Program-made: the position numbers and the translations under genes
Shown: one piece after another, positions 8,443 to 12,900 of the stretch
Layout: the number at the start of each line of letters is the position of its first letter
Numbering within the stretch: the stretch's first letter is position 1
From: a virus
Direction: 5' to 3' (one strand)
DNA length: 29,152 nt
Virus record (IMG/VR): IMGVR_UViG_3300002906_000006
Location: 1-29,152 of that record
The notes under the pieces: generated by a model
What the model saw: only the letters and a program-made list of their open reading frames with translations
What the model was told of the DNA's origin: nothing
The model's database searches: none

Positions 8443-8550
8443 ATGGAAAGAGAAATCGATTACTTTGTAAGTACAGGTGTAATGACTCCGGTGTTTAGAC
8501 AACTCATAGGTCTTTCAATCAAATATGTTATGAAAAAGATTGGATTATGA
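8443..8550 (+). CDS. 35-aa mini-protein
   Basis: ATG at 8443 comes one base after the amidotransferase stop, and its TGA overlaps the ATG of the ATP-grasp gene (ATGA). The product starts MEREIDYFVSTGVMTP and ends with an amphipathic basic helix (IGLSIKYVMKKIGL). The arrangement strongly suggests translation. It may only couple the two enzymes' translation, or be a small partner. No family recognised. Confidence 0.45.
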   Translation: MEREIDYFVSTGVMTPVFRQLIGLSIKYVMKKIGL

Positions 8551-9335
8551 AACGATATAATCGTGCCATCATCTATCCACACGGCCCATCCAATGGTGCC
8601 AGAGCACTTGCACAGTCGCTCGGGACTATCTGTGTACGTGCTACAGGCACGTATAAGGTCCGTGAAGGTGATTTAATAGTTAACTGGGGGTCAGGCAGAC
8701 TCCCCAACTGGTGGAACCCACGTGCTCTCGCTCAATGTCTCAACAAACCACAATATGTTTCCAATGCATCGGATAAAGTACGGACCTTTGCTCTACTTTC
8801 TGCCGTTCGTGTACCTGTGGTGGAGTTCACGTCTAGCCGAGCTGTGGCTCGGTCATGGCTGGAATCCCCTAGATTTGGGAAAGATCTTAATGCTGTCGTG
8901 TGTCGTACTCTTACCCGTGCTAGCGAGGGCCGCGGAATTGTGCTGGCTAAGACGCCGGCTGAAATAGTAAGTGCGCCCTTATACACGCGTTACACGCCAA
9001 AGACGGCGGAATTCCGTATCCATACATTCCGCAAAGGTGGTGTCATCGACGTTCAACAGAAAAAGCGTTCGTCGGAATTCGTGGACGAAGGGACGAACAA
9101 ATACATTAGGAATCATTCAAATGGTTGGGTTTTCTGTCGTGAAGGTGTATCCGCTCCGAAAGAGGCGCTAAATGCTGCTGAGTCTGCAATCCTTGCCTGT
9201 GGTCTCGATTTTGGTGCTGTGGATCTCGGGTATCATCCTAACTATGGTGTTTCTGTATATGAAATTAACACTGCACCGGGACTTGAAGGCACTACTCTAC
9301 AGAGCTATCGCGATGCACTCCGCAACCATTTCTAA
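8547..9335 (+). CDS. ATP-grasp ligase
   Basis: The 262-residue protein has the ATP-grasp layout: an N-terminal domain with GDLIVNWGSG, the central strand with Arg (VVCRTLTRASEGRGIVL), then TAEFRIHTFRKG and VIDVQQKKR, and the Mg-binding end DFGAVDLGYHP...VYEINTAPGLEGTT with Asp, Glu and Asn in place. The closest general type is a D-ala-ligase/RimK-like carboxylate-amine ligase. It would activate a carboxylate as acyl phosphate and couple an amine. Linked by ATGA to the small ORF after the class II amidotransferase, it completes a set of three ATP-dependent ligases. Confidence 0.88.
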   Translation: MKRYNRAIIYPHGPSNGARALAQSLGTICVRATGTYKVREGDLIVNWGSGRLPNWWNPRALAQCLNKPQYVSNASDKVRTFALLSAVRVPVVEFTSSRAVARSWLESPRFGKDLNAVVCRTLTRASEGRGIVLAKTPAEIVSAPLYTRYTPKTAEFRIHTFRKGGVIDVQQKKRSSEFVDEGTNKYIRNHSNGWVFCREGVSAPKEALNAAESAILACGLDFGAVDLGYHPNYGVSVYEINTAPGLEGTTLQSYRDALRNHF

Positions 9336-12015: not shown

Positions 12016-12362
12016 GAGAAGGATCGTTCGATAGACCAACAGAGTTCGAGGTTCAATCTGTAGCATTTAGCACGTTACGTGGAAAGTTTCCATATGTTCG
12101 TGGTGAGTACAAATATAAGCATCCTCTCAAACGTGGTGCTAGGTTTGACATTGCTATTTTTGATTCTAATAAAGCATTGAAGTTAATTATTGAAGTAAAA
12201 AAGTCAAAGAAAAATCCCAATAGAAAGACTGCTACAAAGCAGCTCGATCATTACAAGGACATTACCAATGTGCCAGTTATGCACATTCGGGGCATGGATG
12301 AGGCATACAGAGCTAAAGAATTAGTTGATGATTTCCTAAAAGCAAGTAACCTAGTTATCTAG
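12012..12362 (+). CDS. PD-(D/E)XK nuclease-like protein
   Basis: The 116-residue product has GARFDIAIFD (Asp46) followed by LKLIIEVKKSK (Glu61, Lys63), the core of the PD-(D/E)XK nuclease fold, preceded by a helix with Glu residues that could complete the site. It resembles the small nuclease domain at the N-terminus of type I restriction R subunits and some stand-alone or homing enzymes. It is the only gene between the consensus promoter and the structured RNA. It may mobilise this island or cut competitor or host DNA. GAGGG lies just upstream of its ATG. Confidence 0.7.
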   Translation: MREGSFDRPTEFEVQSVAFSTLRGKFPYVRGEYKYKHPLKRGARFDIAIFDSNKALKLIIEVKKSKKNPNRKTATKQLDHYKDITNVPVMHIRGMDEAYRAKELVDDFLKASNLVI

Positions 12363-12418
12363 GATGATCGTTGGTGTCCCATTCCGTTGAGTCATGGACA
12401 CATCTGGCCCGGCACTAA

Positions 12419-12485
12419 TTGCGACTGATGAAGCTGTACGAGCAGAAACTAGCATGCTACCACCTACCCTATGCTAGTCTCGCGG
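12419..12485 (+). ncRNA. Type I hammerhead self-cleaving ribozyme
   Basis: All core elements are present in order. Stem I is GCGA 12421-12424 with TCGC 12480-12483, extended by two G-T pairs. The core CTGATGA is at 12425-12431. Stem II is GCT/AGC, 12433-12435 with 12441-12443. GAAA is at 12445-12448. Stem III is eight pairs, 12448-12455 with 12471-12478, and the cleavage triplet GTC is at 12477-12479. Cleavage is predicted between 12479 and 12480. The open end is in stem I, hence type I. One departure from consensus is an A-A opposition at the base of stem II (12432 with 12444), where G-C is usual, which could slow the reaction. Confidence 0.88.
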
Positions 12486-12595
12486 AGTCACCCCTGCCGG
12501 GGAATAAATGGTGACCTAGGACGGAAACTTTTGTGGGTTACTCACTTAACTGGTTGACCCGACCAGTATCAGCCTGACCACGGCTGTAGAGAATA

Positions 12596-12689
12596 TCTAT
12601 TTTTGTCGGTGTGCGACTGGGAGTGCTCAGTTTAAAAGTTCCTCTCCAAAAGGTCATAACTGGTGGCCTAGTCGGGCGATAGAAATAGA
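12596..12689 (+). other. Nested long-hairpin domain of the structured RNA
   Basis: Three helices nest without crossing: 13 pairs (12596-12608 with 12677-12689, two of them G-T), 8 pairs (12614-12621 with 12667-12674, one G-T) and 6 pairs (12627-12632 with 12658-12663, one T-G). GGTCA at 12652-12656, in the apical region, is complementary to the TGACC in the loops of both hairpins at 12549-12586, so a kissing or pseudoknot contact is possible. Confidence 0.7.
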
Positions 12690-12837
12690 ATGTATTGCAA
12701 GGAGTTAGTCGGCCTGCCTGACTGGCGTCGGAGTGACAACACTCAGCGGGTGGTTGCTCGGAGCCCTATCCCCTTTCTTTCATTAGGAAAGGATTATGGA
12801 TGCAGTCCGGGTAGTGTTCAAGCCACATTCGTCCTTG

Positions 12838-12862
12838 GAGGGTTCGATCCCCTCGCTCCTCA
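12838..12862 (+). other. tRNA-like T arm at the end of the structured RNA
   Basis: GAGGG 12838-12842 pairs with CCCTC 12850-12854 around the seven-base loop TTCGATC. Together they form the universal tRNA T-arm context GTTCGATCC, followed by seven bases (GCTCCTC) in the position of an acceptor 3' strand and an A where the discriminator would be. No complete cloverleaf precedes it. The best partner for the acceptor strand is AAGGAGT at 12699-12705 (five Watson-Crick pairs plus one G-T), over 130 bases away. Confidence 0.5.
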
Positions 12863-12871
12863 ATTATCTTC

Positions 12872-12900
12872 TTGACGTTGATGGGAAGCTATGGTACAAT
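12872..12900 (+). promoter_or_regulatory. Sigma70 promoter for the helicase gene
   Basis: TTGACG at 12872-12877 and TACAAT at 12895-12900 have a 17-base spacer. The expected start of transcription, near 12907, is only about four bases before the helicase ATG at 12911, so this transcript would be almost leaderless. Confidence 0.7.

Follow-up and report, generated by a model that had tools for sequence, protein, structure and literature searches.

GOLLD and ROOL are phage and prophage RNAs of unknown function that are commonly located near tRNAs. Hammerhead ribozymes (HHRs) have been characterized from phages and prophages, including PaP3, Bcep176, and prophage HHR arrays, and prophage HHRs have been reported to flank genes (Perreault et al. 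2011, PMC3088659). The same study determined that a U-U opposition at positions 10.1/11.1 is active and is the best of the mismatches, and that the core undergoes a natural compensatory change from C3-G8 to U3-A8; the text of PMC3088659 contains no mention of A-A at 10.1/11.1. Theta ribozymes, which are HDV-like, are associated with tRNAs (PMC10879173).

The stretch of DNA analysed here, referred to as the window, is a 29,152-base IMG/VR phage record in which a sequence-only reading had placed a type I hammerhead within an intergenic region. The type and the location are right; the element lies in the gap between a PD-(D/E)XK-like ORF that ends at 12362 and a DnaB-like helicase ORF that starts at 12872, and all of the hammerhead parts were found in the exact order that had been reported (Table 1). 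The description is incomplete, however, because it misses the larger RNA, conserved and pseudoknotted, into which the HHR is optionally inserted.

Table 1. Coordinates of the phage RNA and of its hammerhead insert in the window (A1, alignment A1; R1, covariance model R1)
Feature	Position	Strand	Remarks
Complete phage RNA (pseudoknotted core and HHR insert)	12369-12526	+	Model R1, full length
Conserved 5' CGUUG (consensus CGUKG)	12369-12373	+	A1 and parse of 67 copies
Hairpin Pa	12374-12401 (GTGTCC 12374-12379 with GGACAC 12396-12401)	+	6/6 pairs in the window
Pk 5' strand TTCCGTT, in the Pa loop	12382-12388	+	Pseudoknot with 12520-12526
AUCUGGCCCGGC	12402-12413	+	Near invariant in A1; Pc 5' strand: CCCGGC 12408-12413
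Type I HHR insert	12419-12485	+	Every part at the coordinates reported earlier
HHR stem I	12419-12424 with 12480-12485	+	4 Watson-Crick and 2 G-U pairs
HHR core strand CTGATGA	12425-12431	+	
A12432 opposite A12444 (positions 10.1/11.1)	12432-12444	+	Next pair out is G12433-C12443
HHR stem II	GCT 12433-12435 with AGC 12441-12443, loop GTACG	+	
HHR core strand GAAA	12445-12448	+	
HHR stem III	12448-12456 with 12470-12478, from A12448-T12478 outward	+	8 Watson-Crick and 1 G-U pair
HHR cleavage triplet GTC	12477-12479	+	
Predicted HHR cleavage bond GUC^U	12479/12480	+	1 nt 5' of CGCGGA
Conserved CGYGGA (CGCGGA in the window)	12481-12486	+	A1
Pd	12487-12515 (GTCACC 12487-12492 with GGTGAC 12510-12515), enclosing GCCGGGGAATAAAT 12496-12509	+	6 pairs
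Pc 3' strand GCCGGG	12496-12501	+	Second pseudoknot, with CCCGGC 12408-12413
Pk 3' strand GACGGAA	12520-12526	+	7 Pk pairs in the window

The window HHR features the A15.1-U16.1 pair (A12448-U12478) and the UH cleavage site by which hammerheads are recognized, and its three stems of 6, 3, and 9 pairs with an open stem I are those of type I. The Watson-Crick pair of the class at 10.1-11.1, which is highly conserved, is replaced by A12432/A12444. This opposition, which the sequence-only reading had singled out as a departure from consensus, is expected to slow cleavage; it is not taken to exclude HHR membership because active exceptions such as U-U are known. Alone, the pattern CTGANGA..GAAA..GTC is at chance level, with 0.76 expected per window and occurrences in 54 of 100 shuffles. 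When the three stems are required, however, the 18 pairs of the HHR are reached in 0 of 15,009 shuffles of the entire window that preserve dinucleotides, on both strands (96 type I/III matches of any kind), and the earlier statement that the joint occurrence is unlikely by chance holds in this form. The HHR fold has an energy of -15.2 kcal/mol and the MFE of the identical 76 nt is -15.9 kcal/mol, so that the fold is near the predicted energy minimum but is not that minimum. No loop-loop contact of the type that speeds natural HHRs was identified.

A covariance-model scan had been suggested as a check, with a score below threshold counting against the hammerhead. The Rfam hammerhead models (RF00163, gathering cut-off 34 bits) gave no match in the window, even at E 10, nor on an 86-base stretch; this sub-threshold result is uninformative because all 7 sister HHR loci scanned are also below the Rfam threshold, the best at 28.7 bits. 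The only Rfam model that aligns to the window HHR is RF02125 (JPX_2; 12415-12449, 11.2 bits, chance level), whose consensus CUGAUGAGGCUAGGAGGUUGCAGAAAC looks like a hammerhead core with stem II. Taken together, the window HHR is a variant within the known hammerhead class, and the comparisons support its reading as a type I hammerhead with predicted cleavage.

Evidence for the larger RNA came from blastn. A search with the window gap (E <= 10) returned weak matches that start at the predicted cleavage site. They lie in gaps that carry no annotation in Arthrobacter phage Constance and Enterobacter phage SDFMU_EhYP, each with its own type I hammerhead; the stem sequences differ and the surrounding sequence is common. 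The phage RNA contains four near-invariant stretches, CGUKG, AUCUGGCCCGGCA, CGYGGA, and GCCGGGGAAUAAMU, and runs in the order CGUKG, Pa, a loop with Pk, Pa', AUCUGGCCCGGC (Pc), a variable insert, CGYGGA, Pd, GCCGGGGAAUAAMU (Pc'), Pd', C(U)A, and Pk'. These elements form two interlocked H-type pseudoknots, Pa with Pk and Pc with Pd. The HHR occupies the sole variable loop, between GGCA and CGYGGA, and its stem I in the window overlaps the conserved CGYGGA. Pa, Pd, and Pk, by which members of the family are recognized, are all formed in the window with 6, 6, and 7 pairs, respectively.

Copies were gathered by scanning viral contigs with the 15-base core GCCGGGGAATAAMTG, and their frequencies, which concern the matches listed, are biased for this reason. 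The upstream CG.GGA motif is also present in 98 of the 125 matches in the loci fetched (among the matches listed). At least 80 distinct copies were parsed, mostly from phage contigs: 72 linear, 7 permuted, and 1 incomplete. Covariance model R1, built from 37 other copies with the window left out, matches the window at full length over 12369-12526 (85.3 bits, E 8.4e-23), and this match is an independent test because the window is absent from the model, although it does carry the 15-base pattern with which the copies were gathered.

Pa is 98.6% paired and Pd 99.5% paired in the 37 copies, and in each helix 5 of the 6 pairs have changed on both sides. Contiguous loop-tail pairing of 6-10 pairs was found for Pk in all 67 parsed copies, where the copy-by-copy parse selects the best pairing; the 58.5% recorded for Pk in the 37-copy covariation table is an underestimate because MAFFT misaligns Pk. 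Pc is 100% paired in alignment A1, though nearly invariant there, and compensatory changes are found outside the 37-copy set in Gaia, phiGD24-3, Mwe-JY26, and Pappous, which carry the variants CCCAGC/GCUGGG, CCCGAC/GUCGGG, and CCCGCC/GGCGGG. In the 37 aligned copies, again with the window left out, 87.4% of cells are paired versus 70.4% after shuffling, 187 cells are changed on both sides versus 68.6, and the covariation score is 0.471 versus 0.159 +/- 0.011, a value equalled in 0 of 500 shuffles; the score is lower in every slid control. At the level of sequence comparison, the proposed helices Pa, Pd, and Pk covary strongly, and Pc is supported by compensatory changes in distant copies.

The HHR is present in 46 of the 72 linear copies and in all 7 circularly permuted ones, and 26 linear copies are without it (among the matches listed). 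The predicted cut lies 1 nt before CGYGGA in 58 of 58 distinct HHRs among the matches listed, all in one slot of one RNA with CUGANGA and GAAA intact, which strengthens the type I reading. The invariance of CUGANGA is partly by construction because the scan required it; a less biased figure is that an intact HHR core is missing in only 2 of the 48 long inserts of linear copies (matches listed). One of these two, L117, resembles a decayed HHR, and no second ribozyme type was found in the long non-HHR inserts. Positions 10.1/11.1 are G-C in 31 of the 58 HHRs, A-A in 22 (the window included), U-U in 4, and C-A in 1, and the next pair out is G-C in all 22 A-A HHRs (among the matches listed). The A-A opposition is a recurrent natural variant. 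In the Mycobacterium phage Gaia (L214:3001-3144) the core sequence of the HHR is UUGAUAA, which represents the compensatory change from C3-G8 to U3-A8.

The permuted copies are found in EhYP-like phages, Pectobacterium phage Pappous, a Bordetella trematum contig, and lambdoid prophages. They feature the 3' half, then a joining hairpin CCCUAA..UUUAGGG, then the 5' half, with the HHR at the 5' end and the predicted cut at the same bond as in the linear copies. The EhYP flanks AGAGCACTG and CAGTGCTCT pair across the element, and an outer helix of up to 19 pairs, present in some linear copies, is the counterpart of the hairpin by which the two halves of the permutants are joined.

The family extends over phages and prophages of Actinobacteria, Proteobacteria, and Cyanobacteria, together with contigs binned as Spirochaetes and Gemmatimonadales. 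Carriers in which the RNA is unannotated include Arthrobacter, Mycobacterium, Microcystis, Pectobacterium, and Enterobacter phages as well as E. coli lambdoid prophages, the latter in 15 of the 5,426 genomes of E. coli. In every complete phage record searched, the RNA is present as a single copy per genome; permuted copies give two matches in this search, and an extra 17-nt match in Gaia is at chance level. A blast search of the window region against plasmids returned nothing.

tRNA genes are located within 1.5 kb in 26 of 80 copies (matches listed), 180 of them on the same strand and 0 antisense. In some tRNA arrays the downstream tRNA begins 20-23 nt past AAUAAMU, a span that is nearly all Pd' and Pk'. 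The RNA is flanked by tRNA-Ser and tRNA-Trp in phiGD24-3 and lies immediately 3' of tRNA-Ser in Gaia, within a tRNA cluster in Mwe-JY26, and just 5' of tRNA-Met in Pappous; it is found 3' of the capsid genes (the capsid-to-tail gap) in a T7-like phage, between Q and the holin gene in the E. coli lambdoid prophages, and in the replication module in the window. At least 3 tRNAs are nearby in 6 of 46 HHR copies versus 12 of 26 HHR-free copies (matches listed; Fisher p 0.004, with a threshold picked post hoc and copies that are not independent), and for at least 1 tRNA the p value is 0.07. Two contigs with a copy also carry other RNAs: a sub-threshold YrlA (Y RNA-like, 45 bits, cut-off 69) lies immediately 5' of the RNA in a phage contig (L136:1982-2122), and a class A RNase P RNA (266 bits) lies within the tRNA array of a viral-classed contig (L090:2968-3382).

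In the window, about 330 more noncoding bases with many potential hairpins (12527-12862) lie between the RNA and the helicase promoter-like sequence, and neither relatives nor Rfam families of this segment were found. Within it, at 12838-12854 (to 12862), GAGGGTTCGATCCCCTC followed by GCTCCTCA exactly resembles a tRNA T-arm and acceptor 3' strand. No tRNA or tmRNA was detected here by ARAGORN or Rfam, manual pairing with candidate 5' halves (12483 or 12694) was unconvincing, and viral contigs gave 0 matches to either the exact T-arm or the near-exact HHR patterns; the segment may be an att site, the remnant of a tRNA, or a tRNA that is strongly altered. An isolated T-arm of this kind (GAGGGTTCAAATCCCTC) also lies 3' of the RNA in Constance. 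The promoter-like TTGACG..TACAAT is at 12872-12900, just 5' of the helicase, and TTGACA..TATAAT occupies the equivalent position in the relative L002. A conserved position of the RNA beside the helicase was rejected, since in L002, the closest helicase relative, primase and helicase are nearly adjacent and the RNA is absent; 0 of 80 relatives carry a copy.

We consider it probable that 12369-12526 encodes a discrete double-pseudoknot phage RNA, presumably acting in trans, that is nicked by its inserted HHR. The RNA would be made within a longer phage transcript, in which the HHR would cut at 12479/12480 during or after transcription; the upstream piece would then end in a 2',3'-cyclic phosphate, and the downstream piece would begin with a 5'-OH. 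The Pc and Pk helices are expected to hold both pieces together, so that the RNA would work as a nicked molecule of two pieces. In the permuted copies of E. coli lambdoid prophages, EhYP, and Pappous, a cut at the same bond would trim off a leader, and the product would be a single piece whose 5' end is the same. In dense tRNA arrays the RNA often lacks an HHR and may be released by tRNA-processing enzymes instead. The family can do without cleavage, since 26 of 72 linear copies have no HHR (matches listed). The broader proposal is more tentative: an unnamed and widespread class of phage RNA that exists as a self-nicked two-piece molecule, with natural circular permutants reaching the same 5' end by a different route, so that phages would have evolved one functional RNA in two topologies around a ribozyme.

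Other readings assign the function differently. The RNA may be a cis-acting element, such as a riboswitch, attenuator, or processing or stability element, for a downstream gene or tRNA, as its compact pseudoknotted fold and invariant loops, its position just 5' of tRNAs in several arrays and after the Q gene in lambdoid prophages, and the terminator-like stem that the EhYP copy follows would suggest. We hold this to be unlikely, as the downstream genes (tRNAs, holin, tail gene, helicase, HNH) share no function, the promoter-like TTGACG/TACAAT at 12872/12895 separates the window RNA from the helicase, and neither a terminator nor a start-codon switch was found. Control of one gene type in cis is further argued against by the differing neighbours, which range from tRNA arrays to the Q-to-holin gap, the capsid-to-tail gap, and the replication module.

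The function could instead reside in the hammerhead itself, which would serve in mRNA processing, a role proposed for prophage HHRs, and the pseudoknots would be only a scaffold for its fast folding and cutting. The intact HHR in 7/7 permuted and 46/72 linear copies (matches listed), the overlap of its stem I with the conserved CGYGGA, and the known gene-flanking prophage HHRs (PMC3088659) are consistent with such a role; however, the whole conserved core is kept in the 26 linear copies that have no HHR (matches listed), which indicates that it is maintained independently, and makes this account quite unlikely. At the opposite end, the HHR would be a selfish or neutral insertion without a role, tolerated since it cuts within a loop and leaves pieces that remain associated. 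Its variable presence, the decayed HHR-like insert of L117, and its more frequent absence from dense tRNA arrays (at least 3 tRNAs, with the post hoc threshold and non-independent copies given above) would fit, but the near absence of long inserts lacking an intact core (2/48, matches listed) and the retention of the HHR at the same bond in all permuted copies render it decidedly improbable.

Many unrelated bacteriophages carry the larger RNA, often inside tRNA gene clusters, and the HHR is only a plug-in part of it. Orphan phage hammerheads are thereby tied to a definite molecular context, which shows why Rfam fails to detect them. The RNA occurs once per genome and lies within tRNA arrays and late-operon leaders or near them, which suggests that it has a genuine role in infection. 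Two features are directly testable, the circular permutation of a non-tRNA RNA and the A-A that recurs at the most conserved position of HHR stem II, and the E. coli lambdoid prophages carrying the RNA offer a laboratory system.

In comparison with known systems, it is the larger RNA and its architecture that seem new, and not the hammerhead. No Rfam 15 family matched the larger RNA in scans of the window, its parts, and sister loci, which returned nothing relevant, and no published description was found in a literature search whose reach excluded preprints and most subscription journals, so that an earlier name may exist. A group I intron was rejected as there was no Rfam match and its core signatures were not seen. 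The phage-RNA HHRs share with type I hammerheads of RF00163 the CUGANGA and GAAA strands, A15.1-U16.1, the UH cleavage site, and three stems with an open stem I; they differ in having A-A or U-U at 10.1/11.1 in 26 of 58 (matches listed), a short stem II, and a position embedded in a pseudoknotted RNA, and the Rfam model is blind to the window copy. The phage intergenic location is shared with the HHRs of Perreault et al. 2011; kinship with those of PaP3 and Bcep176 was rejected because, unlike the window, neither has a copy of the larger RNA by model R1. PaP3 also has a gene annotated 'ribosomal protein S6 glutaminyl transferase', a phage family (phrog_2599) that is strongly matched at 8547-9335 of the window. 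The core has no Rfam match to GOLLD or ROOL, which are much larger. An HDV-like Rfam match was likewise absent from the window and the sister loci scanned, a result that covers theta ribozymes only if they are modelled in Rfam 15. Theta ribozymes are similarly phage-encoded, pseudoknotted, and adjacent to tRNA genes, and the theta element self-cleaves. In the phage RNA the predicted self-cleaving part is an HHR, many copies have no ribozyme, and the order of the core helices differs from the nested double pseudoknot of HDV.
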